From positions 1 to 58,065 of IMG/VR virus record IMGVR_UViG_3300027911_000015: 58,065 bases of DNA. The stretch is one strand, 5' to 3'. Under the pieces are notes generated by a model. That model worked only from the letters and a program-made list of their open reading frames with translations. It was not told where the DNA came from and made no database searches. A program made the translations under genes and the position numbers. Shown here in pieces: positions 28,284 through 55,965 of this stretch (within the stretch, counting starts at the first letter, position 1; each line of letters starts with the position of its first letter). The stretch is from a virus.

Positions 28284-29180
28284 TTACTCGTCGTTAGCCA
28301 GCCTGTCAAAGAACTTGAGGTCTTCATCATCATCAGAAGTACCAACGATATCAGCATCAGATACCGCAGGCTTGGCAGTAGGTAGCTTACCCTGCTTGGC
28401 TTGTTCCACGGTTGTCTGTGGACGTTGCGTGCCATCACCATTCAGACCAAGAACCTTGTCAAGACGAGCCTTGAGGGCATCGTAGGACTTGAAGTTCTTT
28501 TCTGTGACCAGATCCTTCAGAGGATATTCGGACTTCCAAATCTTTTCCATCTTAGCGTCATCGGCAAGCAGGGGACCTGCATCAGCGAATTCACTCTTAT
28601 CGTAGTTCGGATATCCTTCAACCTTACGAATCTTCAGCTTGAAGTTCGCACCAGTCCACATATCGAATGGGTTGATAGGCGTTTCATCTTCAAACTCAGG
28701 ATTCATGGCGCTGGTGATCTTTTCGAAAATCTTCTTTCCGAACTTGAACAGGAACACCTTGCCATTGTTTTCTGGGTGCTTAGGATCTTCCACGATATAC
28801 ACGTTGGCAATGTAGGACAGCTTGCGCTTTTGCTTACGTGCGATTTCCTTGTTAGCTTCGACACCAGAATTCCAAAGAGTGCTGTTGTACTCCGAAACTG
28901 GGTCGTTCTTATTAAGGGTGGTCAGTGAGTTTTCGATGTACCATCCGCCTGGGCCTTGGAAACCATGCGAGAACATCTTGACCCACGGAAGGGCGTCATC
29001 ACCATCAACTTCGGGAGCAGGAAGGAAACGGATTACAGCATAACCGTTACCAGCCTTATCAACTTCAGGCTTCCAGAAATTTTCTTCCTTGGATTGACCT
29101 TCGCCTTGATTGAGTGCTTCGACTGCCTTGGTGAGTTTTTCGAGACTTGAGGACTTCTTGAGGTTTTGAAATGCAGACAT
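28284..29180 (-). CDS. 32: Single-stranded DNA-binding protein gp32, 298 aa
   Basis: The N-terminus MSAFQNLKKSSSLEKLTKAV is the basic self-association arm. The OB core has YAVIRFLPAPEVDGDDALPW, then FSHGFQGPGGWYIE and KRKLSYIANVYIVEDPKHPE, NNGKVFLFKFGKKIFEKI, all close to T4 gp32. The C-terminus is acidic (SDDDEDLKFFDRLANDE), the contact site for replication proteins. There is no Cys at all: the three zinc-binding cysteines of T4 gp32 are missing. It coats ssDNA in replication and recombination and is transcribed toward the terminator it shares with gp5. Confidence 0.95.
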   Translation of the reverse strand: MSAFQNLKKSSSLEKLTKAVEALNQGEGQSKEENFWKPEVDKAGNGYAVIRFLPAPEVDGDDALPWVKMFSHGFQGPGGWYIENSLTTLNKNDPVSEYNSTLWNSGVEANKEIARKQKRKLSYIANVYIVEDPKHPENNGKVFLFKFGKKIFEKITSAMNPEFEDETPINPFDMWTGANFKLKIRKVEGYPNYDKSEFADAGPLLADDAKMEKIWKSEYPLKDLVTEKNFKSYDALKARLDKVLGLNGDGTQRPQTTVEQAKQGKLPTAKPAVSDADIVGTSDDDEDLKFFDRLANDE

Positions 29181-29582: not shown

Positions 29583-30287
29583 TTAGTCTCCCAGTTGAGT
29601 CTTGAAGAATTCATAACGATTGAGGCGGGATTCGTGTGTTTCCTTCACGATATCCACACACCTCTTGCATAGCATAGGACTCACCTTCGACACATAATGA
29701 GTCTTGTGCTTTTCTTCCACTTCACCGCACATGGAGCAAAGGTAGTGGTTACCCGACCTGCGATTACCATACTTGTCTCGCTTGAGAATACCAGGATAGT
29801 AGAATTGCAGGTTGTTGAGGTAGCAATGTAGTTCTTCGAAGGTATTGAAAATCTTGGTGGTCTCCGCCTGCATCCAGCCAGGGACTTCCTTCAGGTCACC
29901 ATACGAGTTCACCATGAACACCGGCATGTCCATCATGAACGCTTCGTGAACCTCTGAGGTCGTTCCGGCACCTCGGCGCACAGATTCATCGTAGTAGATG
30001 ATGAGGGCATCAGTGTCGAACTTCAGAAGATTGATATCAGTTTCGATGAAGTGTACGCGAAGATTCGACTTGAATTGAAGGTGGTCGGTCTTAGAGTCAT
30101 AGTGATAGAGTTCTCCGTGAGCCTTAGCGTAGGCGATATCCAATGCTGCGATATCGATAGGGTAGTAACCCATCTCCTTCAGTTGAGGAGAAATCTCTGC
30201 GCGCCAACCTGTGCCCATGTTCTTGGCGAACTGCATTCCCCCACTGAGGTAGATCGAGCCATTAGGATACTTTTGATTATCTATCAT
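29583..30287 (-). CDS. Nucleoside 2-deoxyribosyltransferase-like protein with C-terminal zinc ribbon, 234 aa
   Basis: The N-terminal part has SIYLSGGMQFAKNMGTGWRA, then DTDALIIYYDESVRRGAGTT and SEVHEAFMMDMPVFMVN, the layout of the nucleoside deoxyribosyltransferase/YtoQ fold; the GAGTTSEVHEA segment holds the usual catalytic-type Glu. A C-terminal extension has CSMC ... CKRC (about residues 183-186 and 206-209), a zinc ribbon. Base salvage or nucleotide remodelling is possible. The start overlaps gp59 by eleven bases, within the replication gene group. Confidence 0.62.
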   Translation of the reverse strand: MIDNQKYPNGSIYLSGGMQFAKNMGTGWRAEISPQLKEMGYYPIDIAALDIAYAKAHGELYHYDSKTDHLQFKSNLRVHFIETDINLLKFDTDALIIYYDESVRRGAGTTSEVHEAFMMDMPVFMVNSYGDLKEVPGWMQAETTKIFNTFEELHCYLNNLQFYYPGILKRDKYGNRRSGNHYLCSMCGEVEEKHKTHYVSKVSPMLCKRCVDIVKETHESRLNRYEFFKTQLGD

Positions 30288-30987
30288 TTTCCCTCACCTT
30301 CGTTTTTACAATTTCCTTGAACTTCATTTTATCATAGTTCACGAAAGGAGTATACTTCCTGATCCTTCTATACCAATCAGGAAAGATAATGTCATCATCT
30401 ACCTTCCGTTTCCACATGGGGAGGAAATCCATGAGGTCGTTCAGTATCACTACGGTTTCAATACTGATTCTACCACCCATCAATTCAGACAGCAATACAG
30501 GAAAGGTTCCATACGGAACTTTCAGCCAATCTACAGGTCTCCATTGCGTCAACATATAGTCCAAATCGTTGGAGAATCCATAGGTCAGCGATTGGACTCT
30601 CTTTTGCCATGCATTGTAATTAGACGCAGCATCGTCATTGAGTAGGTCACCTACCCATAGCTTATCGTTGATGATGAAATTGGAAACGAAGAAATTCTTG
30701 GCATCTTCCGCAGTGGTATACTTGCGAGAGAGTTTGTAGAAGAAATATTTGTGGCGGGAGTTCAGGAAAGAATCTTGCTTGTTCTTGGTCTTTCCGTTGT
30801 ACTTGAAGAAATCGTAGGAGTCGGTGGAGAAATGGAGTTTCAGTGCATTGAATAGACAGTAGGTCTCCCATCCACCGAATTCCTTGGGAGCCGTACTGAC
30901 GAAATCACTCTCCTTGCACTTGCAATTGAAAGTTAGTCCGCAGTAGTCACATTCCTGGTCAAACTCATCATCAGAAAGAATGCTCAT
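30277..30987 (-). CDS. 59: DNA helicase loader gp59, 236 aa
   Basis: The body matches T4 gp59 (217 residues): LNSRHKYFFYKLSRKYTTAE, then NFFVSNFIINDKLWVGDLLN and NYNAWQKRVQSLTYGFSNDL, and ISIETVVILNDLMDFLPMW. gp59 loads the gp41 helicase on gp32-covered forks, and gp32 lies close downstream. The N-terminus has a small Cys cluster (CDYCGLTFNCKCKE, residues 13-26) that could bind zinc and is absent from T4 gp59. Confidence 0.88.
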   Translation of the reverse strand: MSILSDDEFDQECDYCGLTFNCKCKESDFVSTAPKEFGGWETYCLFNALKLHFSTDSYDFFKYNGKTKNKQDSFLNSRHKYFFYKLSRKYTTAEDAKNFFVSNFIINDKLWVGDLLNDDAASNYNAWQKRVQSLTYGFSNDLDYMLTQWRPVDWLKVPYGTFPVLLSELMGGRISIETVVILNDLMDFLPMWKRKVDDDIIFPDWYRRIRKYTPFVNYDKMKFKEIVKTKVRENDR

Positions 30988-31595
30988 ACTTTATTTTTAC
31001 AATTATCGAAATGCCACCTAAACATGCCTGATCCTTTACCTGTAAATCCACAAATAGGACACGTATGAATTCTGTTTCCTATTATTTTACCTCCAATTTT
31101 CCCACCTATTTTTCCACCTTTTATTCCTCCTTTTTTACCCATGGAGGAGTACATTTCTGTAGTTGTATTTGCGGCCTTTCTTTTTCCGTTTTGTATGCGG
31201 TGTTCTTTTGTTATGACCTTTATACCCTTTTGTCCGCCTCGAACTTTGGCTTCTTTTGGAACACATCTTGCGGCCATTGCTTGGTGTTTTTTGTCTGTGA
31301 AGAATCTACGAAAAACGACCTTTGCTTCTTCTGAGGACATACCACACGAACTTTTTGTATTATTCATACATTGGGGTTGTCCGAAAACCTCAGAAATATA
31401 TTTTTCTTCTAATATTTTCAATTCTTCTTCAGAATTAGCAAATGACAATATCTCTCTTTTTAATTCAGATTTATCCTTTATACTTTTGATCCACAATCCA
31501 GAACCTAAGTATCCATCATCCATATTATTGGTCGAATGTCTGCCTCGGTAATATTTACCATTTATATGTGTAGTTTGATATATGAAGTGTATCAT
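30984..31595 (-). CDS. GIY-YIG-like mobile endonuclease with C-terminal finger, 203 aa
   Basis: The N-terminus FIYQTTHINGKYYRGRHSTN, then DDGYLGSGLWIKSIK (residues 4-38) resembles the Seg-type GIY-YIG group in which the second motif is YRGRH. The middle has Lys/Gly repeats (GGIKGGKIGGKIGGK) and the end a C-x2-C-x12-H-x3-C finger (CPICGFTGKGSGMFRWHFDNC), shared with three HNH genes in the window. It is coupled at both ends by ATGA overlaps (gp33 before, gp59 after), showing a neat insertion between late and replication genes. Confidence 0.72.
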   Translation of the reverse strand: MIHFIYQTTHINGKYYRGRHSTNNMDDGYLGSGLWIKSIKDKSELKREILSFANSEEELKILEEKYISEVFGQPQCMNNTKSSCGMSSEEAKVVFRRFFTDKKHQAMAARCVPKEAKVRGGQKGIKVITKEHRIQNGKRKAANTTTEMYSSMGKKGGIKGGKIGGKIGGKIIGNRIHTCPICGFTGKGSGMFRWHFDNCKNKV

Positions 31596-31819
31596 TCTTT
31601 GAAATGTAGACTACTGGTTTTCTTGAGTAGGTTGTTTTCTTCCGCTTCTTCGCGAATCTTAGCCTTCAAGGTAGGCGATAGCAGAGTCGCAGCGACTTCC
31701 ACTTCCAATCCCGTGACAGAACAGTGGTGCAGGATGGCATCCATCAGACCACACTTGAGTTCCCTCGATAGGTTCTCTATCATGAAACTGAAGGTCTTAA
31801 TTTCGTCGCGGGTTGGCAT
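31592..31819 (-). CDS. 33: Late transcription co-activator gp33, 75 aa
   Basis: The core FMIENLSRELKCGLMDAILH, then HCSVTGLEVEVAATLLSPTL and KAKIREEAEENNLLKK matches T4-like gp33 of marine phages. gp33 binds the RNA polymerase flap and the gp45 sliding clamp to activate late promoters. The extreme C-terminus (SSLHFKE) lacks the T4-type clamp motif, so the clamp contact may differ. It agrees with the TATAAATA promoters in this window. Confidence 0.72.
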   Translation of the reverse strand: MPTRDEIKTFSFMIENLSRELKCGLMDAILHHCSVTGLEVEVAATLLSPTLKAKIREEAEENNLLKKTSSLHFKE

Positions 31820-31827
31820 ATTACCTC

Positions 31828-32439
31828 TTATAGAATCGTGCTGGTGTAGAAAACGTGTCTACCAATGACCACGAACTGTTTCACGTTGGTCCATTGAGGA
31901 TTTACGTAGGAAGCATGGTAGAACAGAACATTGTATTTCGCTAGTGTAACGTGTGCCACGCCCTTTGTCAAGACATTCTTGGCAATCCACTTCGATTCTT
32001 CCCAATTGTAATAGTTCATCGAGCCAGGTTCGTGATGTTCACCGACCCAGGAGAACTGGTATACCTTGTTTCCTTCCAAGTCTGTTGTGGATTGGTATAC
32101 CACGGCACATATTGTTCCTGGGTATCCCTTCGTGTGCGTCCGATTCATGGTAACCTGAGCTACTGCCAGTTTACCTTCCATCGGTTCATTGCCTGCCTCA
32201 TAGTAGATATTGAGTGCCAGACATTCGATCTGTTTGCGTTCTTCGGCCTTTCTGTCACCGTATTCCTCTACAACCTTCGTGACCAGCTTATCTCTTTCTT
32301 GTGCTTCATGGTGTTGCGCGTGGCTTGTCATCGCCTTTTCGTATTGGTTCTGTGCAAAAAAGGTTGCGCCAGTCAAAAAGACCATGAGTCCTACGGTCAA
32401 AAGGAATGAATTGAGATACTGTTTAATTCGATTAAACAT
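31828..32439 (-). CDS. SleB/CwlJ-type cell-wall hydrolase with N-terminal membrane anchor, 203 aa
   Basis: A basic start and one hydrophobic segment (SFLLTVGLMVFLTGATFFAQ, about 11-30) look like a signal anchor. The catalytic part is Hydrolase_2: ECLALNIYYEAGNEPMEGKL, then AVAQVTMNRTHTKGYPGTIC and YQFSWVG, typical for SleB lytic transglycosylase/amidase-like enzymes. The anchored layout recalls SAR endolysins that are released to start lysis. A good ribosome site (AAGGGAG) precedes the ATG. It follows the tmRNA gene. Confidence 0.85.
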   Translation of the reverse strand: MFNRIKQYLNSFLLTVGLMVFLTGATFFAQNQYEKAMTSHAQHHEAQERDKLVTKVVEEYGDRKAEERKQIECLALNIYYEAGNEPMEGKLAVAQVTMNRTHTKGYPGTICAVVYQSTTDLEGNKVYQFSWVGEHHEPGSMNYYNWEESKWIAKNVLTKGVAHVTLAKYNVLFYHASYVNPQWTNVKQFVVIGRHVFYTSTIL

Positions 32440-32510
32440 GATACTCCCTTGGTTGGTTTTTATTATTCGAACTTTGTTGAATTACTTGATACCATGATGG
32501 TAGTTGAAAC

Positions 32511-32540
32511 GCCAGTTTATGAGGAGCGTGGAAAACTGGC
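32511..32540 (-). terminator. Hairpin after the tmRNA coding piece
   Basis: Eight perfectly paired bases (GCCAGTTT and AAACTGGC) around a 14-base loop follow the tmRNA coding piece. There is no clear T-tract (GTTTCAAC follows), so it may be a 3'-end stabilising or processing hairpin rather than a full terminator. Confidence 0.5.
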
Positions 32541-32857
32541 AAAACCCCGGAGTAATTTAGGCTGCGAGAGCCATTTCCTCAAAGAAAACGCTTTCGTTTG
32601 CGTTTAACGTTTTTGCGCTGTTTAACGTGAGTGCTTCACGATTCTCCGTATCGTTACTCGTCGCCCAATCGAAGCCTGGTCGTCCCCATTAGGAAGCATT
32701 TTAGTTTCAGATGCACAGTGGCGGGTCTGACTCCGGACACTTTCGCTTGCCTTTCGGCCCTAAAATGCTTTCTGGTGGAGACGGCGGGAATCGAACCCGC
32801 GTCTTGGACACCTTTCTCTCAACTTCCTTCCCCTAACGGGGTCTTTCGAATACTGAA
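32541..32857 (-). ncRNA. ssrA: Circularly permuted two-piece tmRNA (ssrA)
   Basis: The acceptor piece is encoded first: it ends with T-arm GCGGGTTCGATTCCCGC and CGTCTCC-A-CCA (CCA end at about 32773). An intervening segment to be removed follows, then the coding piece begins GGGGACGACCAGGCTTCGA at 32687. GGGGACG pairs with CGTCTCC over seven base pairs (one G-U), forming the tRNA-like acceptor stem. The tag frame at 32601-32557 reads ANESVFFEEMALAA and stop. CGGGGT after the tag (32549-32544) can pair with ACCCCG near the acceptor-piece 5' end (32842-32837), a link between the pieces. Permuted tmRNA is typical of Alphaproteobacteria. It frees stalled ribosomes and tags products for proteolysis. 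The outer ends are approximate. Confidence 0.92.
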
Positions 32858-32957
32858 TCTCCGCGAGGAATTGAACCTCACGTAACCCTTCTTCCTGGCC
32901 TGCCTTCACCTTTGCGTCGGTGTTGGCTATCGGTGTTCCAGTGTAGTTACTCGGAGA
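32858..32957 (-). ncRNA. tRNA-like structured element upstream of the tmRNA
   Basis: TCTCCG at the 5' side pairs with CGGAGA at the 3' side. Inside lies a T-arm-like hairpin GTGAGG-TTCAATT-CCTCGC. A long arm closes with GTAAC/GTTAC, CTGG/CCAG, GCC/GGC and CACC/GGTG. No D-arm, no anticodon arm and no CCA can be fitted, so it is not a normal tRNA. Its 3' end touches the expected 5' end of the tmRNA acceptor piece, so a processing role is possible; it could also be a decayed tRNA. Confidence 0.5.
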
Positions 32958-32962
32958 AAAAC

Positions 32963-33376
32963 TTACGAGTGGATTTCACCCTTCTTGTCAATCTGCTCGA
33001 ACATCTTCTTCATCTTATCATCAGCCCATGCCATGACTTCTTGCTCATTGTTCTGAATCTCTTTGACCAACTCACCCTTCACATAAGGAGACAATTCGGT
33101 CTTTCTTGTTTCTTCGGCCAGATTCTTGACGCCTGCCACGAAACACCTCTTCGAGAGGTCTTGAATAATCTCTTCGTTCACACCACCAAGTTCGTGGAAT
33201 GTTCCCACTGTAGCCGACTGTAGGCAGCCGAGGTGATATGCAGTAACTCTATGGAAAAATACCATCTCCTGTAGAGTGACCCTGACTTCCTGAGGGGGAG
33301 AAGGTGCTTTTTCTTCCGCAGGAAACACAGAGAATGCAACGAAACCTAGTAATGCAGCAACCAATAGTTTCTTCAA
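32963..33376 (-). CDS. Exported protein of unknown function, 137 aa, TTG start
   Basis: Start placed at a TTG preceded by AGGGGGT. It yields MKKLLVAALLGFVAFSVFPA, a standard signal peptide with likely cleavage after FPA. An upstream in-frame ATG lies inside the -10 box of a strong promoter, so it cannot be used from that transcript. The mature part is helical and has two Cys (near residues 60 and 88). It is the first gene after the promoter and ends just before the tRNA-like element and tmRNA, probably on one transcript. No family recognised. Confidence 0.72.
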   Translation of the reverse strand: MKKLLVAALLGFVAFSVFPAEEKAPSPPQEVRVTLQEMVFFHRVTAYHLGCLQSATVGTFHELGGVNEEIIQDLSKRCFVAGVKNLAEETRKTELSPYVKGELVKEIQNNEQEVMAWADDKMKKMFEQIDKKGEIHS

Positions 33377-33403
33377 TTTACCCCCTACGCTGTCTGAATT
33401 GTT

Positions 33404-33432
33404 ACTATACATGAACCTGTAGTGGAAGTCAA
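33404..33432 (-). promoter_or_regulatory. Sigma70-type promoter for exported protein and tmRNA
   Basis: The minus strand has TTGACT (33432-33427), a 17-base spacer, and TATAGT (33409-33404). It lies about 28 bases before the TTG start of the exported protein, and no other promoter is visible before the tmRNA. Confidence 0.75.
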
Positions 33433-33576: not shown

Positions 33577-33584
33577 TATTTATA
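33577..33584 (-). promoter_or_regulatory. T4-type late promoter-like octamer
   Basis: Minus strand TATAAATA, seven bases before the ATG of the 46-residue gene, in the same arrangement as at gp25 (TATAAATAGA...TATGGC). It overlaps the stop codon of the upstream nuclease gene. Confidence 0.5.
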
Positions 33585-34239
33585 CCGAAAGGGACTCCTT
33601 GTAGATTTTGATTGATTCCAGCAGGTATTCCACATGGTCCTCTGTCTTTTCGATGAAAACCTGAGGCTTTTCACCAGTTACACCCATGAGAATCACGATT
33701 TGAGGCACCTCCACCCCCACCAACTCTTCAATCATGTATGAATATGCACAACATTGAGCGAAATAGTCAAGGACATACTCTCTTTTCTTGTGCTTGCGTG
33801 CGGTCTTGAAGTCAATGATGGACAACACACCATCATAATGAGCCACGCAGTCCACTCGTCCAGCCAACTGTAGAGCCTTCGAATACACCGCCTGTTCCTC
33901 ATACCAAATATCAGAGATTCGATTGAGGTGCGGCTTGATATCCAGAAACATTTCCTTCGCGTCTGGCATAGAGGTTCGCAAAGGCTTGTTGTTCAGATAG
34001 TCCTCGCATAAGGCGTGCATACCTGTGCCACGTCCTGATGCTGTCTTGATAATCTTGCGGGCTTCATCCTCACCCACCCTCTTTTTCCAGTCAATGATGC
34101 CTTGTTTCTTGCGAACACCAAGGACGGTGGTTACGGAAGGAACGCGAGAACCGTCCGGCAACGTATAGAAACGTTTACCGGACGGTAGGGTTTGCGATGG
34201 GATATCTTCGAGTATCAGGGGCGGACAATGATGAAACAT
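33580..34239 (-). CDS. PD-(D/E)XK exonuclease (Cas4/RecB-like), 219 aa
   Basis: The motif series is visible: a Glu in IWYEEQAVYSKALQLAGRVD, the GRVDCVAHYD Asp, SIIDFKTARKHKK (D-F-K) and a helix QCCAYSYMIEEL with Gln/Tyr (about 115-175). The front part (LPDGSRVPSVTTVLGVRKKQ) is the usual start of phage exonucleases related to MGME1. It probably degrades or trims DNA ends during recombination or host DNA breakdown. It precedes the small basic gene and follows phoH. Confidence 0.78.
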   Translation of the reverse strand: MFHHCPPLILEDIPSQTLPSGKRFYTLPDGSRVPSVTTVLGVRKKQGIIDWKKRVGEDEARKIIKTASGRGTGMHALCEDYLNNKPLRTSMPDAKEMFLDIKPHLNRISDIWYEEQAVYSKALQLAGRVDCVAHYDGVLSIIDFKTARKHKKREYVLDYFAQCCAYSYMIEELVGVEVPQIVILMGVTGEKPQVFIEKTEDHVEYLLESIKIYKESLSV

Positions 34240-35323: not shown

Positions 35324-36781
35324 TTAGGTCCAAACTCGGAAATTCTCAAATGAACAGGGGTTCTTTGCATCATATTCACGATAGAACAATGAATTCTTGT
35401 CTTGATTAGGTCTCCAATCAGTCTTTTCGAAAGCAATGGGACCCAGATATGGATCAGCATACTTCAGAATGAAATCGTAAGGCATCGCCTCAGGCTCCAC
35501 ATAGCCACGATCTGGATTCTGGATTGCCCAGATGATTCCACCAAGCAATGCAGCACCAACTTGAATAGCCGTGGCGTTTTCACCAGGCACCAATTCGCGG
35601 GCTTCTTCGATACTCAACTGCGAGCCGTGCCATACTGCGAAATCATCGCCAATGAGCAATACGCCCAGTTCATCCATACCACCAACGATTTCGTCCTTGG
35701 CTATCCGAGTTTTGGATTGCAGATCAAGTTCACGGCCGCGAAGTTCATGGACAGATGCGATTGCAGCATCGCATGGCTGGTACACGTAGTATACAGAGGG
35801 ACGGAATTTGCCATCTTCTGTCTCGAAATACTGCGACATTGTGATGGATTCGCTGTGCTGTATACAAAACCCATTGTAACTTCCTCCTTGTGGAACCCAT
35901 GACTTCATGAGTACGGATAGACCTGGTTGTTTTAGATATGCGGCAGTGCCTTGTGATTCACCGTTTTCTGGCTTCTTGTTTTCGTGTGTTCCCCAGCCCA
36001 TTTCAGCAGGAGCCCGACCTTCGGCCCAGAATCCTTCGCAGGACCAGGTGTTCACGAATTCATTCTTTTCCTTTGGCTTATCAATTACCTGTGTGTCTCG
36101 TTCAGCAATATGAATCACCTTGACACCCAAATCACGCATTAGTTCCGCCCAACCTTCCTTGCTATAAGGAGGTAGGACATGATCTAGATCCTTGCGACCC
36201 TCTGCCAGTTTCAGCAAAGCCCGCTTGGTCAACTGCGTGACAAGACCAGGATTGGCTCCATTCGTTACAACCGCTGTCGCAGCATTCGGATACTCTGCGG
36301 CCATTTCACACACCACGGCGTGTGTATGGAAGAGAGTGCGGTCAGCAAGTTCGGGAATCTTTTCATCAGGCTCGGTGCCCCAACGTTCCAGTGAGGTGTT
36401 GGTATAGTGTACACCATTTTCCAGGCACCACTTGATGATGGATTGCGCTTCAATATTCAATGACACATCAATGACAAAGCCACCCTCTTCAGTATACTTC
36501 TTGAGGGTGGCTTCCAGATTACCAGGGAGAATTTCCTTACGGACATACTTGACGCCGTTATCACCGTTACGCTTGGTGAATACGTCCTTGTGGTCGTCCT
36601 TTTCAAGGACCGTGATTTGCGATGGCGAACGTGCGACGTGTTTGATTACAAGAGGAAGAATACATTGACCCACCGAACCATATCCGAGGATCAGGATCTT
36701 CTTGTCGTATTTTACAAACTTGTCTTTGTCAACGATTGCTTCGACCAATGCGGTCTTGAAGGCGCTATATGGCTTGCGCAT
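35324..36781 (-). CDS. hss: Homospermidine synthase, 485 aa
   Basis: A Rossmann GxGxxG (ILGYGSVGQC, Gly33-Gly38) starts the saccharopine-dehydrogenase-like NAD domain. DVSLNIEAQSIIKWCLENGV, YTNTSLERWGTEPDEK and VTNGANPGLVTQLTKRALLK follow the bacterial homospermidine synthase pattern, as does the length (about 475-480 in bacteria). The enzyme makes homospermidine from putrescine (and spermidine) with NAD as a bound redox cofactor. Polyamines neutralise DNA charge, so this may help genome packaging or host-like polyamine balance. It is rare among phages and common in Alphaproteobacteria. Preceded by CGGAGTAACC before the ATG. Confidence 0.93.
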   Translation of the reverse strand: MRKPYSAFKTALVEAIVDKDKFVKYDKKILILGYGSVGQCILPLVIKHVARSPSQITVLEKDDHKDVFTKRNGDNGVKYVRKEILPGNLEATLKKYTEEGGFVIDVSLNIEAQSIIKWCLENGVHYTNTSLERWGTEPDEKIPELADRTLFHTHAVVCEMAAEYPNAATAVVTNGANPGLVTQLTKRALLKLAEGRKDLDHVLPPYSKEGWAELMRDLGVKVIHIAERDTQVIDKPKEKNEFVNTWSCEGFWAEGRAPAEMGWGTHENKKPENGESQGTAAYLKQPGLSVLMKSWVPQGGSYNGFCIQHSESITMSQYFETEDGKFRPSVYYVYQPCDAAIASVHELRGRELDLQSKTRIAKDEIVGGMDELGVLLIGDDFAVWHGSQLSIEEARELVPGENATAIQVGAALLGGIIWAIQNPDRGYVEPEAMPYDFILKYADPYLGPIAFEKTDWRPNQDKNSLFYREYDAKNPCSFENFRVWT

Positions 36782-46292: not shown

Positions 46293-47783
46293 TTAGAATC
46301 CGCCCCTTCGAACGTCTACAGTATAGTTCTCAAGTTCTTTACCTTCGGGATCCCGAGTCTGCATCTTTACCTCATATCCCCACAGGTTGCTGAAATGCCA
46401 CAAGGTATACAACGCATCGGTATGTTCCAGTGAATGTCTGCGAGTAGTATAGTGTTGGAGTTGGACATGTCGGTCTCCCCACACATCCACGTCCATCACC
46501 TGAATATTTGGAATAAAGTTGTTCGCGTTTTGCTGATATGAGAGGGCTTCCCTCACCTCTTTATACCCTCTATCGTCATGAATCGATTGCACGATCATCT
46601 TCGGGAATCCATCATCGTCAAGGACATGGAACAGCCTGAAATCTCGAATAACCTTGGGTGACAGGTATTGCATGATGAATGATTCGTCCTTGAAATCATA
46701 TGCCGCGTGTTTCAGTGTGTTGATCCAATCACCGTTGCCAGCCCATTCAGGGAACCACTCCCTATCTTCGGCAGTAGGATTCGTGGCGATACGCTTGATA
46801 TCCTGGAACATTGCGAATCCCAATGCATATGGATTCAACTGCGCCATGGGATGCTGATAGGTCACTCCTGTATGCGAATGCAGGAACTCCATCATGAATC
46901 CATCGGTCACCAGACCACGGTCATACATTTCATTGACGATGGTGTAATGCCAGAATGTGGCCCATCCTTCATTCATCGTCTTGGTCAGCATTTGCGGATA
47001 GAAATACTGGGCCACCTTGCGGACGATCCGAATGACTTCACGCTTCCATGGTTCAAGATTTGGAGCATTCTTCTCAATGAAGTAGAGAAGGTTTTCTTCT
47101 GGTTCCTCGACGGACCTGGGTTGCATAGGAGCTTGATTGGCACCACCAACAGGCACCGTTCTCCACATATCATCGAAGTGTTCTTGGTCGAACTTGTCAC
47201 GGTCCTTCTTCAGTTGTTCCAGAACCGTCTTGGACTTCTTGGCGGGCCTCTTGTATCGGTCTACACCATTCTGCCTCAGCGCATGGGCAGAATCAAGTAC
47301 ATTAGCGACCTCATCGGCACCATACTTCTCTTCGTATTCGGCAATCTTGCTCTTTGCGTAATCCAGGAAATCGATGATAGCCTCTGCATCCGTCCACTGC
47401 TTAAAGAGGTGGTTATTCTTGAAGAAGTTATTGTGTCCGATGCAGGCATGAGCCATGACCAACGTTTGCATGGCCATCGTGTTCTCTTCCATCAGATATG
47501 AAATGCATGGATTGGAATTGATGACGATTTCATAGGCAAGGCCCATATCACCACGCTTGTATCTCTCCTGATTGCTCACGAACTCCTTGCCGAACGACCA
47601 GTGTGAATAGTAGATCGGCATGCCGACGGCCGCATAGGCATCCAGCATTTGTTCGGCTGATATGATTTCAATTTGATTGGGATAGTAATCAAGACCGAAG
47701 TCCTTGGCGATCTTCTCGATTTCGATGTATGTGTCATCGATTTCGTTCGCCGTCCAATCCTTGCAAGAATCAATCTTCTTCAT
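46293..47783 (-). CDS. SpoVR/YcgB family protein, 496 aa
   Basis: The whole length matches SpoVR: YYPNQIEIISAEQMLDAYAA, GMPIYYSHWSFGKEFVSNQE, YEIVINSNPCISYLMEENTM and MAHACIGHNNFFKNNHLF, then NEGWATFWHYTIVNEMYDRG and HTGVTYQHPMAQLNPYALGF. E. coli YcgB has about 510 residues. SpoVR proteins work in a shared path with PrkA and DUF444; the biochemical role is not settled. Its ATG overlaps the stop of the DUF444 gene (ATGA), so the triad is coupled. Confidence 0.95.
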   Translation of the reverse strand: MKKIDSCKDWTANEIDDTYIEIEKIAKDFGLDYYPNQIEIISAEQMLDAYAAVGMPIYYSHWSFGKEFVSNQERYKRGDMGLAYEIVINSNPCISYLMEENTMAMQTLVMAHACIGHNNFFKNNHLFKQWTDAEAIIDFLDYAKSKIAEYEEKYGADEVANVLDSAHALRQNGVDRYKRPAKKSKTVLEQLKKDRDKFDQEHFDDMWRTVPVGGANQAPMQPRSVEEPEENLLYFIEKNAPNLEPWKREVIRIVRKVAQYFYPQMLTKTMNEGWATFWHYTIVNEMYDRGLVTDGFMMEFLHSHTGVTYQHPMAQLNPYALGFAMFQDIKRIATNPTAEDREWFPEWAGNGDWINTLKHAAYDFKDESFIMQYLSPKVIRDFRLFHVLDDDGFPKMIVQSIHDDRGYKEVREALSYQQNANNFIPNIQVMDVDVWGDRHVQLQHYTTRRHSLEHTDALYTLWHFSNLWGYEVKMQTRDPEGKELENYTVDVRRGGF

Positions 47784-49132
47784 TGTTTAGCCTTGCGTTC
47801 GAACAACTTGATGAATGATGGATATACATCCTTATCCGATGTGGACAATGCCATTCCCAAGTTGGTGTGTGATTGCGCAATCTTCTCGTAGAGTGGCCAT
47901 AGACCATCCGAGGTCGAAGAGTGCATACCCCAACTCGTATTTTTGTATAGTTGCGAACCGTGATAGTGCGGATCCGCCTGAATGTATGCGAAGTATTGCA
48001 CGATTGGAAGAAGTTTCTTGGTCAGAATGTCCTCAACCTCAAGATTATCTTCGGAGTAGTTATCACCGTCAGAGGCTTGGGCAACATACACATTCCATTG
48101 TTGGAGTGGATATCGTTCCTGAATCGTATCATAGGTCAGTTGGAGGGCCCTTGATACCACCGTGCCTCCTGATTCCTTCGAGTGATAGAACTCATGTTCA
48201 TCAACCTCTTCGGCGTCCGTGTGGTGGCGAATATATACGATTTCGACACGTTCATAGTTCTTTACAAGGAAGAGATACAACAGAAGGAAGAATGTCTTGG
48301 ACATTTTCTTCTTCTCTTCGTCCATTGAACCCGACACGTCAAGAATACAGAACATCACCGCTTGGACAGTAGGAACAGGCACCTTCGTATAGTTGGTGAA
48401 ACGGAGGTCCATTGGGTCAATGAAGGGAACAGCCTTTACACGGCGCTTGAGTGTTTCAATCTGTTTGCAAAGGTCCTCACGTTCCTGTTTTTGTCGGGCA
48501 GCACGTTCGATATCAAGTGAACAATCATGGACACTATGATCCATATCGTACAACTTTTGTTCCGCTTCCTTCAGTTTCTTGGCAAGGGCAGCCCGCAGAC
48601 CGAATCTACGGCCCTTGGCTTGGCGCATTGAGCGAACGATATTCAGTTGGGATGGAGGACCTTCAGAGACATAGCCAGATCGGTGCTTCTCTTCTTCATT
48701 GACCTTGGCAATGGTGCGTTTGAATAGATCGGGAAGTTCGCAGTTCTCAAAGAAGATATCAAGGAACTCTTCTTTCGTCAAGGTGAACTCGAAAGAGTCC
48801 TCACCTTCACCATCCTTGCCTCCCTTGTTTCCTTTTCCCTTACCCTGTTGAGGACGGTCGATTTGGTCACCTGGCACATACTCTTCATTGCCTGGTGCTA
48901 CGATGTGGTGTTCACCAATCGACCTATCATGATGGAAATGAGGCTCTTTGAGGTCCTTTGTTGGGATCTTGACCTTGCCCTTACCATCAGCAAGGTCTTT
49001 CAGATCCGTATCCGAAATGGACTTCCTTACGGCATCCTTCAGGTGTTCTCTCACACGCCCAACAAACTTGCGGCGATTCTCGGAGGATTTACCCTTATTG
49101 TTCAGCCGACGGTCAATGATCGTGTGTGCCAT
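47780..49132 (-). CDS. DUF444 (YeaH/YhbH) protein with VWA-type domain, 450 aa
   Basis: Start set at MAHTIIDRRLNNKGKSSENR, the normal N-terminus; a longer frame overlaps the kinase gene. The middle has the glycine/lysine-rich linker (QGKGKGNKGGKDGEGED) and EFTLTKEEFLDIFFENCELP. From about residue 260 comes a von Willebrand A domain with the MIDAS motif DVSGSMDE. E. coli YeaH has about 427 residues and is encoded beside the YeaG kinase. Confidence 0.94.
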   Translation of the reverse strand: MAHTIIDRRLNNKGKSSENRRKFVGRVREHLKDAVRKSISDTDLKDLADGKGKVKIPTKDLKEPHFHHDRSIGEHHIVAPGNEEYVPGDQIDRPQQGKGKGNKGGKDGEGEDSFEFTLTKEEFLDIFFENCELPDLFKRTIAKVNEEEKHRSGYVSEGPPSQLNIVRSMRQAKGRRFGLRAALAKKLKEAEQKLYDMDHSVHDCSLDIERAARQKQEREDLCKQIETLKRRVKAVPFIDPMDLRFTNYTKVPVPTVQAVMFCILDVSGSMDEEKKKMSKTFFLLLYLFLVKNYERVEIVYIRHHTDAEEVDEHEFYHSKESGGTVVSRALQLTYDTIQERYPLQQWNVYVAQASDGDNYSEDNLEVEDILTKKLLPIVQYFAYIQADPHYHGSQLYKNTSWGMHSSTSDGLWPLYEKIAQSHTNLGMALSTSDKDVYPSFIKLFERKAKQ

Positions 49133-49143
49133 TAGGTTTCCGA

Positions 49144-51081
49144 TCAGTGGTTCTTGCGGAACCTCATATACCATTCGACAAGCAACCGAACCTGCTTCTC
49201 GGTGTAACCCTTGCTCATCATACGATCCACGAAGTTCTTATGCTTCGTATCTTCTTCGTTGGTTGCTTTCTTGTTGAAGGAGATAACGGGAAGAAGTTCC
49301 TCTGTGTTCGCAAACATCTTCTTTTCGATAACGTTGCGAAGTTTCTCATATGAAGTCCATGCAGGGTTCTTGCCACCGTTGTTCTTCGATGCGCGAAGGA
49401 CAAAGTTCACGACCTCATTACGGAAATCCTTAGGATTGTCGATCTTGGCAGGCTTCTCGATCTTCTCCAGTTCGGCATTCAGTGCATCGCGGTCGAACAT
49501 TTCGTTCGTATCAGGATCACGGAAGTCCGCATTCTGAATCCATGCATCGGCGTATGTAATGTAACGGTCGAAGAGATTCTGACCATATTCCGAATACGAT
49601 TCGAGATATGCCTTTTGGATTTCGTCCGAAAGGAACTCGGCGTACTTCGGCGTAAGCACCGAGCGAATGAACTTCAGATATTCTTCCTGTGTATCCTTCG
49701 GCAGACGTTCTTCGTAAATCTGCTTTTCGAGAATATACATCAGGTGAATAGGATTGGCAGCGACTTCGCCCTTATCATAATTGAATGTCTTGGACAGGAT
49801 CTTGAAGGCGAAACGAGTGGACATTCCATCCATTCCTTCGGTCACACCAGCATCGTCACGATACTCTTGCAGTGACTTGGCATGAGGGTCCTTATCCTTC
49901 AGGTTCTTGCCGTCATAGATTTCCAGTTTAGAATATAGTGCCGAGTTAGCGGGCACCTTCAGTCGGCTGAGGACACAGAATTTGGCCAACGTATCGAATG
50001 TTCCTGGTGCGCAAACGGCTTCCTTCAGTGAGGAGTTTTCGATCAACTTCTTGTAGATATCAACCTCTTCAGTAACACGGAGGCAATACGGAACCTTGAC
50101 AATCGAAATACGGTCAATAAAGGCTTCGTTGCGGTTGTTGTTGCGGAAGGCTTCCCATTCCGACTCGTTCGAGTGGGCGATGATGATACCATGGAAAGGC
50201 ATCGCAGCGAATCCCTCTGTGCCGTTATAGTGACCTTCTTGCGTGGCGGTCAGGAGAGGGTTCAGTGACTTGATGTTCGTCTTGAAGATTTCAGCATAGT
50301 CCACAAGGCCTTGGCCCGTAACGTTCAGGGCACCAGAGTATGAATAGGCATCAGGATCGGCTTGCGAGAAATCTTCCAGCTTGCGAATGTCCACCTTACC
50401 AACGAGGGATGAAATGTCCTGGTTGTTTTCGTCACCAGGTTCGGCCTTGGCAACACCGATGCGAAGGAGTTGCGAGGGCCAGACCTTGACGATCTTGAAT
50501 TGGGTGATATCGCCTTCGAACTCTTGGAGCCTCTTGGATGCCCATGGCGACATGATGGGTCGCAGCGTCTTGCGGGGAATACCGAACTGGTCCTCAAGCA
50601 TAGGACCATCCTGTTCACCGTCGAAGAGTCCAAACGGCGATTCATAGAGAGGAGAAATCTGGTCGCCAGCCTTCAGTGTATAGAAGGGAACCTTTTCGAA
50701 AAGGTCCTTCAGACGTTCAACGATGGACGACTTGCCGCCTCCAACAGGACCCAGGAGATAAAGAATCTGCTTGCGTTCTTCAAGTCCTTGTTCGGCTCTG
50801 CGAAGGAAGGACACAATATCTTCGATGGTTGTCTCAAGACCGTAGAAATCAGCGAAGGCCTTGTATACATGGATCTTGCGATTCATGAAGATCCGAGAAA
50901 GGCGTTCGTTCTTCGAAGTATCCACCAGTTCGGGTTCACCGATAGCGGACAGCAAACGAGCCGCAGGCGAAGCATACATGGTCGGATCCGTCTTGCATTG
51001 CTCCAGAAAGTCCTGGACGGACATTTCATGTGCAGTGCGCGAAGCGTAACGGGTCTTGTACTTGCCGAAGATATCGCTCAT
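49144..51081 (-). CDS. PrkA-type serine protein kinase/AAA protein (YeaG-like), 645 aa
   Basis: Very close in layout and length to E. coli YeaG (644). The N-terminus MSDIFGKYKTRYASRTAHEM and SVQDFLEQCKTDPTMYASPA lead to Walker A GPVGGGKSSI (111-120). ETLRPIMSP-type segments (RKTLRPIMSPWASKRLQEFE), GALNVTGQGLVDYAEIFKTN and GIIIAHSNESEWEAFRNN are typical PrkA motifs. PrkA proteins phosphorylate proteins or, as reported for relatives, act as AAA proteases. First gene of a PrkA-DUF444-SpoVR order as in bacteria. Confidence 0.95.
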   Translation of the reverse strand: MSDIFGKYKTRYASRTAHEMSVQDFLEQCKTDPTMYASPAARLLSAIGEPELVDTSKNERLSRIFMNRKIHVYKAFADFYGLETTIEDIVSFLRRAEQGLEERKQILYLLGPVGGGKSSIVERLKDLFEKVPFYTLKAGDQISPLYESPFGLFDGEQDGPMLEDQFGIPRKTLRPIMSPWASKRLQEFEGDITQFKIVKVWPSQLLRIGVAKAEPGDENNQDISSLVGKVDIRKLEDFSQADPDAYSYSGALNVTGQGLVDYAEIFKTNIKSLNPLLTATQEGHYNGTEGFAAMPFHGIIIAHSNESEWEAFRNNNRNEAFIDRISIVKVPYCLRVTEEVDIYKKLIENSSLKEAVCAPGTFDTLAKFCVLSRLKVPANSALYSKLEIYDGKNLKDKDPHAKSLQEYRDDAGVTEGMDGMSTRFAFKILSKTFNYDKGEVAANPIHLMYILEKQIYEERLPKDTQEEYLKFIRSVLTPKYAEFLSDEIQKAYLESYSEYGQNLFDRYITYADAWIQNADFRDPDTNEMFDRDALNAELEKIEKPAKIDNPKDFRNEVVNFVLRASKNNGGKNPAWTSYEKLRNVIEKKMFANTEELLPVISFNKKATNEEDTKHKNFVDRMMSKGYTEKQVRLLVEWYMRFRKNH

Positions 51082-53052: not shown

Positions 53053-53601
53053 TTAGACCTCTCGTTTCATTTTGCATTTGTCGAAATGCCTTTGGAACAT
53101 ACTTGGTCCCTTGCCTGATACGTTACAGTGAGGACAAGTATGAACTCTATTTCCTGTTAGGTATCCACCTTTTCTTCCTGCCGCAGTTTTTTCTTCTGCA
53201 CTCATACTATTCAATCCTTTTTGATAGCCAACTATACAGCCTATCTTTCCTGCTTTGGATCTATTTTCAAAAGTGCCATTTTTTCCACCAATCTTTCCTC
53301 CGATCTTACCTCCTATTTTTCCTGCTTTTGACCTCTGTTCGCGTGTCGTCTTAGCGTGCATTATGGATATGTTTTTTGATCCATTATTTTTTCCATTCTC
53401 TATTTGTTTCAGTTCAATCAAATCTTGACCTGAAATCATGCCGCTAAGTCCTAACCATGCTACCTTATCTTCCCATTGCCCAAATGCTATCCAACGAACA
53501 TGGTGGATTTGGGCATGAGCCTCCAACGATACCTCAAGAATGTTGGAAGGATCATCGGTTCCTCCTAAGTGCTTAGGTATTAGATGATGCTTATGTCTCA
53601 T
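53053..53601 (-). CDS. HNH-type mobile endonuclease with terminal finger, 182 aa
   Basis: N-terminal HHLIPKHLGGTDDPSNILEV, then SLEAHAQIHHVRWIAFGQWE is the same HNH opening as in two other genes here. The centre has GGKIGGKIGGK repeats like those of the GIY-YIG-type gene at 31 kb, and the end CPHCNVSGKGPSMFQRHFDKC is the shared finger. Coupled to FtsH by ATGA. Confidence 0.85.
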   Translation of the reverse strand: MRHKHHLIPKHLGGTDDPSNILEVSLEAHAQIHHVRWIAFGQWEDKVAWLGLSGMISGQDLIELKQIENGKNNGSKNISIMHAKTTREQRSKAGKIGGKIGGKIGGKNGTFENRSKAGKIGCIVGYQKGLNSMSAEEKTAAGRKGGYLTGNRVHTCPHCNVSGKGPSMFQRHFDKCKMKREV

Positions 53602-55442
53602 ACAGTAACAGGTTCTCCATTCATGATCTGGTCGATTTGTCGTGCATCGAGAGTTTCATATTGGAGTAGAGCCTGCGTCATTGCTTCAACCTTGTCTCTG
53701 TTTTCCAGAATGAGGAGTTTGGCTTTATGGTATTGTTCTTCAAGAATACGGCGAATCTCAGCATCAATGTCCTGCATTGTCTTTTCGGACACGTTGCGGG
53801 TCTGCGTCACACTGCGCCCAAGGAAAACTTCCCCTTGATTCTCCGCATAAACCATGACACCAAGTTTTTCGGTCATGCCGTATTTTGTAACAATATCTCT
53901 CGCCATATCGGTGGCACGTTGGAAATCACTGCTTGCTCCTGTTGTGATTTGTCCCATGAAAACTTCTTCACAAATACGGCCAGCACATAGAATAGCAATC
54001 TTATCGAGCATGTATTTCAGATCATACGTATGTCTGTCCGCGGAAGGGAGTTGCATTGTGACTCCCAGTGCCCGACCACGGGGGATGATCGTGACCTTAT
54101 GCACAGGATCAGTTTTTTCGACCAACCTTGCAACAATGGCGTGACCAGATTCGTGCACGGCAGTATTCTTCAGGTCATCAGGATCCAGAACCATCGAGCG
54201 CCGTTCAGTCCCCATCATGATCTTGTCCTTGGCCTTTTCGAAGTCCTGCATTTCCACCACCTGCGCATTACGGCGCGCCCCCATCAGTGCGGCCTCATTG
54301 ACCAGATTGGCCAAATCCGCGCCACTAAACCCTGGTGTTCCACGGGCCAGCACCTTCACATCCACTGTGGGTGACACAGGAACCCCCTTCATATGTACCA
54401 GTAGGATCTGTTCCCTTCCCTTAATGTCCGGCAATGAAACAGTAACCTGCCTGTCAAACCGTCCTGGACGAAGGAGGGCAGGGTCCAGCACGTCTGGTCG
54501 ATTGGTCGCTGCGATGACGATAATGGTCTGGTCGGTAGAGAATCCGTCCATTTCCACGAGGATCTGGTTCAGGGTTTGCTCGCGTTCATCGTTACCTCCA
54601 CCTACCCCTGCTCCACGTTGGCGTCCAACCGCATCGATTTCGTCAATAAAGATGATACAGGGGGCATGTTTCTTGGCTTGGGCGAACAGGTCACGAACCC
54701 GAGCAGCGCCAACACCGACGAACATTTCAACGAAGTCGGAGCCCGAGATATGCATGAATGGAACACCAGCCTCACCTGCAATGGCCTTGGCGAGCAGTGT
54801 CTTACCCGTGCCAGGTGACCCTACCATGAGGGCACCACGAGGGATGCGACCGCCGAGTTTCGAGAATCGCGTAGGGTCCTTCAGGAAATCCACGAACTCC
54901 TTGACTTCTTCCTTGGCCTCATCGCAACCCGCAACATCGGTGAATCGTGTCTTGACTTGATCGGGCTCCAGCTTCTTACCCGTGGACTTGCCGAAACTCA
55001 TGGCACCACCAGCACCACGTCCACCCATACGGCGCATGAGCCAGATCCACACAATGACCAGAAGGAGAACAGGACCGAACACCCAGAATACATTGCCGAG
55101 GGACGAGGGCTCAGGTGCAGGGATGTATTCGAGATTGACCTTATGGACACTCAGGGCTTCCATCACCACCTTATCGCCCGAAGGAACAATGGTCGTGATT
55201 TCAGACTTGTCTTTCTCCTTGGCAAAGATGCCCGTGGATCCCGCGCGCAGTTCTTCGAGTTTGGCAGAGACAACCTTATCTGCGTTCACCTCAGTGATAA
55301 ACTGCGTGTAGGTGACCTCGCGAGGAGTAATGTGGGTGTGACTGATAGCTTCTTTCCTCAAGTAATGTGCAATAGCAAAGACAGCAATTGCGGAAACAAA
55401 AAGGATTGCCACTTTAATCTGTAGGTCACTTGGCTTTTTCAT
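53598..55442 (-). CDS. ftsH: FtsH-type membrane AAA zinc protease, 614 aa
   Basis: Start at [20 protein letters not shown] (a TTG just before is not needed). Two membrane segments (about 10-28 and 116-136) flank a periplasmic part. Walker A GSPGTGKT (208-215), Walker B IFIDEID (264-270), arginine fingers in RPGRFDR (325-331), pore motif FVG (241-243) and the zinc site HESGH (430-434) are all intact. Length is near E. coli FtsH (644), which degrades membrane and some soluble proteins. A phage copy could remodel host membrane proteins, degrade regulators or process tmRNA-tagged proteins. All catalytic residues are present. Confidence 0.96.
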
Positions 55443-55965
55443 CAATATTCCTTTTCTTACAGTTATCGAAATGGTATCTTTTCATATTGCGAATACTCTT
55501 CATACCACAATGAGGACATTCTAACATCTTGGCATTTTTCTTTAGAAGATGATGTACCCCTTCCTCAACCAATTTCCTATGTATTTTTCCTCCGACCAAA
55601 ACATTTCTTCCTTCTTCTATCAATTTACGCTGAAGTTCTCCTCCAAGGAAATGATGAGTACCTTCTTTTGATCTTTTCAGTGCATGATATCTTTGAAACC
55701 CACTATCTAAGAAATGATGGGTACCTTCTTCAACTCTTTTCTGGCATAATTCTTTACTATGTTTAGTATACACCTCATGTAAGATTTCTTCTTTTCCTAT
55801 TTGGCCGCTTAATCCTTTCCAAGCAACCTCATCTTCCCAATGGCCGTATTGTTCCCACAGCAATCGATGGGCTTCGGCATGTTCCTCTATTGTAAGTTCT
55901 ACGAGGTTGGAGGGATCGTCTGTGCCTCCCATGTGCTTAGGAATGATGTGGTGTGTATGTTTCAT
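55426..55965 (-). CDS. HNH homing endonuclease with terminal finger, 179 aa
   Basis: HNH opening KHTHHIIPKHMGGTDDPSNL, then VELTIEEHAEAHRLLWEQYG. Several repeats of GTHHFLGGELQRKLxEEG (about 80-150) and the finger CPHCGMKSIRNMKRYHFDNC at the end. Its C-terminal codons overlap the first 17 bases of ftsH. Very like the gene at 44.1-44.7 kb. Confidence 0.87.
   Translation of the reverse strand: MKHTHHIIPKHMGGTDDPSNLVELTIEEHAEAHRLLWEQYGHWEDEVAWKGLSGQIGKEEILHEVYTKHSKELCQKRVEEGTHHFLDSGFQRYHALKRSKEGTHHFLGGELQRKLIEEGRNVLVGGKIHRKLVEEGVHHLLKKNAKMLECPHCGMKSIRNMKRYHFDNCKKRNIDEKAK

Follow-up and report, generated by a model that had tools for sequence, protein, structure and literature searches.

Two-piece transfer-messenger RNAs (tmRNAs) encoded by bacteriophages have been described before, the closest being that of Methylophilales phage Melnitz, published in 2022 (PMC9004378) together with a survey in which 402 phages with a tmRNA were found among 18,146 genomes, 53 of 133 unique tmRNA structures were two-piece, and a permuted tmRNA was present in 17 of 47 Melnitz-like contigs (PMC9004378). 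A 2025 database holds 79 unique bacteriophage tmRNA sequences (PMC11915505). Here we describe a permuted tmRNA gene in IMG/VR record IMGVR_UViG_3300027911_000015, of which positions 1 to 58,065 are hereafter called the window. This 58-kb stretch is part of the genome of a T4-like myovirus for which environmental DNA is the only source. As two-piece tmRNA from phages already appears in PMC9004378, the window gene belongs to an already published kind of phage gene. We consider it very probable that it specifies the two-piece tmRNA of a T4-like phage, charged by the host and delivered by host SmpB, which tags proteins for host proteolysis and so adds rescue capacity.

Structure of the tmRNA gene

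The permuted gene lies on the minus strand at approximately 32866-32505 of the window. In a covariance-model search, RF04321, the Rfam family for permuted tmRNA, matched from end to end (model 1-213) with 108.3 bits (E=3.2e-20) against a gathering threshold of 47 bits, and ARAGORN, which is independent of Rfam, called a tmRNA* at 32466-32866 with the tag ANESVFFEEMALAA. Low scorers of RF04321 in bacterial genomes reached about 27-66 bits, and the one inspected was an ordinary one-piece tmRNA. In the gene, the CCA-bearing half comes before the 5′ acceptor half; an earlier note on this DNA, written from the letters alone, had read a permuted phage tmRNA in just this arrangement, with the CCA half ahead of the GGGGACG half, and a covariance-model search, the kind of check that it proposed, bears it out over the full length of RF04321.

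The acceptor piece (32773..32866, minus strand as for all parts of the gene; from RF04321 and ARAGORN, with inner coordinates by motif and an approximate 5′ end) carries the 5′ strand of helix P2 (32810-32804), the T-arm (32800-32784), the acceptor 3′ strand CGTCTCC (32783-32777) and an encoded ACCA whose CCA end falls at 32773, each located by motif. It is followed by an intervening sequence of 85 nucleotides (32772-32688, from the gene order) that is predicted to be removed, and in its predicted fold (-25.2 kcal/mol) a terminal hairpin brings the CCA end beside the start of the coding piece. The coding piece (32505..32687; from RF04321, motif and fold, with an approximate 3′ end) begins with the acceptor 5′ strand GGGGACG (32687-32681) and continues with the P2 3′ strand (32668-32662), both by motif, and the tag reading frame (32601-32557; ARAGORN and translation), in which ANESVFFEEMALAA runs from the resume codon GCA (32601-32599) to a stop codon. 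It closes with a 3′ hairpin, GCCAGTTT...AAACTGGC (32511..32540), recognised from its fold and from a similar segment in other phage genes, which is likely part of a predicted pseudoknot with the upstream GGGG (about 32550-32511). The span first proposed for the gene, 32541-32857, does contain the tmRNA on the minus strand, but its left end at 32541 truncates this hairpin and the likely pseudoknot.

The acceptor stem forms seven of seven pairs, including one G-U (G3-U70), the T-stem five of five and P2 seven of seven, so that the seven-base pairing of the halves expected by the earlier note is present and is joined by a second seven-base pairing in P2. The G-U wobble of the acceptor stem is a recognition feature for alanyl-tRNA synthetase. 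The resume GCA at 32601 and the degradation-type ALAA-stop end of the tag are likewise as predicted. The permuted gene order leads us to infer that the tmRNA is made of two pieces.

Pairing and tags across phage genes

Permuted tmRNA genes were gathered from related virus records. Of 50 records retrieved by way of FtsH or PhoH, 10 had one, as did 8 of 50 retrieved by way of the gp6 baseplate protein; Melnitz and two loci that a pattern search had turned up completed the set. Across 20 distinct phage sequences, to which the counts in this section refer, standard pairs occupy 94.7% of cells in the three helices, as against 46-52% when the partners are slid by 1-3 columns. Changes on both sides were seen in 14 of 19 pairs, and the acceptor-stem U-G wobble is present in 20 of 20 sequences. 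By helix, pairing is 100% in the acceptor stem and T-stem, a value biased upwards because the segments were partly cut by requiring these two stems to be paired, and 85.7% in P2, whose pairing also helped to decide the register. Despite this bias the compensatory changes are genuine, and the Rfam and ARAGORN calls are independent of the cutting. The predicted joining of the two pieces by acceptor stem and P2 is supported by these compensatory changes.

Among the phages the tags measure 9-23 amino acids, and 19 of 20 have the usual type of end, one residue and then AA, which implies selection on the tag. The tag of the window had been thought exceptional in length and make-up. This does not hold, as related phages, Melnitz among them, often have tags of 14 amino acids, one of their commonest lengths, and its composition lies within the range of the group.

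A conserved locus in T4-like phages

The window contains the T4-like genes gp6, gp25, a gp5-like hub lysozyme, gp33, gp59 and gp32, and the best-scoring isolate match of its gp6 is Melnitz, with 41% identity over 69%. The order around the tmRNA is PhoH - PD-(D/E)XK - 149-amino-acid protein - tmRNA - cell-wall hydrolase - gp33 - ... - gp59 - ... - gp32. Annotated tmRNAs stand between the same neighbours (PD-(D/E)XK, then gp33 - gp59 - gp32) in Melnitz and in Pelagibacter phage Mosig, and the same tmRNA locus occurs in 15 metagenomic virus contigs, among them two near-identical pairs. A tmRNA is present in 8 of 10 contigs above 40 kb that were selected through gp6. For five further tmRNA-bearing loci (L208-L210, L217 and L027) the neighbourhood is missing or the contig too short to tell. 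That the window, the 15 contigs and both isolates, Melnitz and Mosig, have the gene at one locus argues for a maintained phage gene over a stray host fragment, in agreement with the earlier assignment of the gene to the phage.

All genes given with coordinates in this paragraph are on the minus strand. Upstream of the tmRNA lie the PD-(D/E)XK nuclease (33580..34239; PF12705, phrog_298), which is the upstream neighbour in most syntenic phages, and, directly before the tmRNA, the open reading frame of the 149-amino-acid protein (32963..33412), for which no match was found in Pfam or PHROG. Downstream follow the cell-wall hydrolase, a lysin (31828..32439; PF07486, phrog_938), the gp33-like late promoter transcription factor (31592..31819; phrog_254, E=8.5e-14), the gp59 helicase loader (30277..30987; PF08993/PF08994, phrog_269) and the gp32 single-stranded DNA-binding protein (28284..29180; phrog_224, E=2e-115). 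A Saccharopine dehydrogenase-like gene (35324-36781) adjoins PhoH. Farther away the window holds a trio of bacterial genes, for a PrkA kinase (49144-51081), a DUF444/YhbH-like protein (47780-49174) and SpoVR (46293-47783); PrkA and SpoVR have also been reported in the Ralstonia jumbo phage RsoM2USA (PMC8504454).

A model for the phage tmRNA and its rivals

The gene, its structure, its tag frame and its conserved phage locus are what the sequences show; from them we infer how the RNA is cut, charged, partnered with host SmpB and used for proteolysis, and when and to what benefit the phage employs it. Two cuts in the precursor, one at the encoded CCA and one at the GGGGACG start, would release the intervening hairpin, and the acceptor stem and helix P2 would hold the two pieces to each other. 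The RNA would then be charged by host alanyl-tRNA synthetase by way of G3-U70, and host SmpB would deliver it to stalled ribosomes, where the tag ANESVFFEEMALAA would mark the unfinished protein for host ClpXP or FtsH-type proteases. With messenger RNAs broken and ribosomes stalled during infection, a phage tmRNA would thereby add rescue capacity. Neither the window nor any of 18 tmRNA-bearing contigs yielded an SmpB gene. Unless one is encoded beyond these fragments, the phage RNA depends on that of the host, and it most likely works with both the SmpB and the synthetase of the host.

Several points weigh against this model. In the Rfam model the pairing of P2 is poor in its outer part, and the predicted single-strand fold of the whole region is unexceptional (z -1.35), which is unsurprising because pseudoknots cannot be modelled. 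Furthermore, the phage tag ANDNSFRQVA, identical in two samples (L193/L194), lacks the AA end, and the SmpB search covered a genome fragment, so a phage SmpB elsewhere in the genome is possible.

A specialised tag, sending products to the phage's own FtsH or towards stability and not to host ClpXP, is unlikely. The window does encode a full-length FtsH-like membrane protease, as noted earlier, outside the tmRNA locus (53598..55445, minus strand; PF01434, PF00004); it looks intact, with Walker A and HESGH motifs, and the tag begins ANES, as does that of L018, and not AND[EN], so that an adaptor reading AND might not bind it. However, the tag ends in ALAA like ordinary degradation tags, and FtsH was found in 0 of 10 tmRNA-bearing contigs chosen by means other than FtsH, among which is one of 163 kb, although this absence is weak evidence because the contigs are fragments. 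The functional link between FtsH and the tmRNA that the earlier note implied thus drew no support from co-occurrence. A decoy that binds host SmpB, the ribosome or alanyl-tRNA synthetase and so blocks or diverts host trans-translation is quite improbable, as a pure decoy needs neither the tag frame, nor the resume codon, nor the AA-type end, all of which are intact in the window and kept across diverse phages. An idle passenger, that is a host ssrA copy gained by imprecise excision or transfer and neither expressed nor used, is very unlikely given that the helices covary, the tags are intact and many T4-like phages have the gene at this one locus, even though ssrA is a common prophage integration site and ssrA fragments are known in prophages (PMC9004378).

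A broad group of T4-like phages has long kept a two-piece tmRNA gene in one fixed place, an argument that ribosome rescue is important for phage growth.

Transcription and flanking sequences

A T4-late-promoter-like box, TATAAATA (33577..33584, minus strand), precedes a 46-amino-acid open reading frame (33569-33429), the 149-amino-acid gene and the tmRNA. Three such boxes occur in the window where 1.05 would be expected; like this one, the other two stand directly before start codons, so late transcription of the tmRNA is plausible. The Melnitz tmRNA was placed behind an early promoter by its authors (PMC9004378), so the timing may differ between phages. A sigma-70 promoter just before the tmRNA was considered and rejected, the 6 matches showing little excess over the 3.0 expected by chance (standard deviation 1.8). 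Part of the intervening sequence looks by eye like a stretch of a cobalamin riboswitch, but a riboswitch there was likewise set aside, no Rfam riboswitch matching up to E=10.

Directly upstream of the tmRNA a tRNA-like fold was observed (32857-32957, minus strand; z -2.5) with a T-arm-like TGAGG-TTCAATT-CCTCG, but a tRNA gene was rejected there, as no tRNA match was obtained. Locus L200 has a tRNA match below threshold (25.8 bits) at 1407-1492, directly upstream of its tmRNA, and in L190 (1300-1374) and L018 (2891-2965) the phage tmRNA is accompanied by a tRNA, called by ARAGORN, whose anticodon is CTA (amber). By eye, a small open frame is seen inside the intervening sequence of the tmRNA genes of L207, Melnitz (L189) and L193, that of L207 being a complete open reading frame of 50 amino acids, MKYKMVVDTGYRIYVKERSKSKEHLVEKALGLSKKHPKWKISVAEEKTII. 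The intervening sequence of L199 is unusually long (276 nucleotides) with GC-rich inverted repeats, and its CCA is incomplete (CCACA); no further Rfam family was found in it at the gathering threshold.

Evolution of permuted tmRNA

According to the Rfam clade models, one phage locus holds both alpha-type (e.g. L195, L198) and beta-type (e.g. L200, L201, L204) tmRNAs. In a tree of 60 mature sequences, whose weight is limited because the sequences are short, the branches long and the tree unrooted, 16 betaproteobacterial permuted and 13 phage tmRNAs form a supported group (99/100), within which the phage sequences branch around the betaproteobacterial ones; the label alpha was given to bacterial sequences according to their T-loop and tag. 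A single clade of phage tmRNAs was rejected by the approximately unbiased (AU) test (p-AU 0.007), and strict co-inheritance with phage core genes was also rejected, the correlation being weak (Mantel r 0.24-0.35, p 0.0075-0.07). In the sampled bacterial order permuted tmRNA is rare, occurring in 17 of 399 genomes.

These patterns suggest that phages may have spread the permuted tmRNA gene. Either phages gave it to betaproteobacteria, or hosts were its repeated source, and recombination in the phages brought it into one locus. We regard as possible, but doubtful, the more far-reaching idea that T4-like phages are an old reservoir and vehicle of the gene, that their locus has held it from a time before its alpha and beta types diverged, and that the so-called third lineage of two-piece tmRNA, in Betaproteobacteria, was acquired from phages and not separately permuted. 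The mixture of types at one locus, with betaproteobacterial tmRNAs nested among those of phages, is possibly new, and the presence of both types at one phage locus makes the origin of betaproteobacterial permuted tmRNA directly testable.

Herbaspirillum sp. YR522 (L226/L227, L228) appears to carry both an ordinary one-piece tmRNA (tag ANDNSYAQAA) and a permuted one, whose unusual tag ANEPQFVAYGT lacks an AA-type end. A prophage origin of the permuted copy was considered and rejected, no Pfam phage domain being found among the eight proteins scanned in the 8-kb locus.

Comparison with known tmRNAs

The Melnitz ssrA (MZ577097, 45984-46436) is permuted like the window gene, has a 14-amino-acid tag ending in ALAA (ANDNYVPVDYALAA) and shares the locus PhoH - PD-(D/E)XK - tmRNA - gp33 - gp59 - gp32. 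It differs in its T-loop, which is the alpha-type GGCAGTA against TTCGATT in the window, and in its intervening sequence of 142 against 85 nucleotides. It is also described as controlled by a glutamine riboswitch (PMC9004378), for which the window gives no Rfam match. The tmRNA of Mosig (MT647606, 111467-111805) is again permuted and lies between PD-(D/E)XK/hypothetical and gp33, but its ARAGORN tag is GEDNFALAA and its host is SAR11. Among bacterial families, alpha_tmRNA (RF01849, Alphaproteobacteria) has the same permuted gene order and domain plan, whereas most sampled alpha genes carry a T-loop GGCGGTA or GGCAGTA that the window lacks. Beta_tmRNA (RF01850, Betaproteobacteria) shares with the window the T-loop TTCGATT and a seven-base P2. 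It is the best of three clade models, although its 61.9 bits are below the family threshold of 84, and the window also stands apart by a long branch (0.62) in the tree. T-loop and tree together place the window tmRNA on the beta side.
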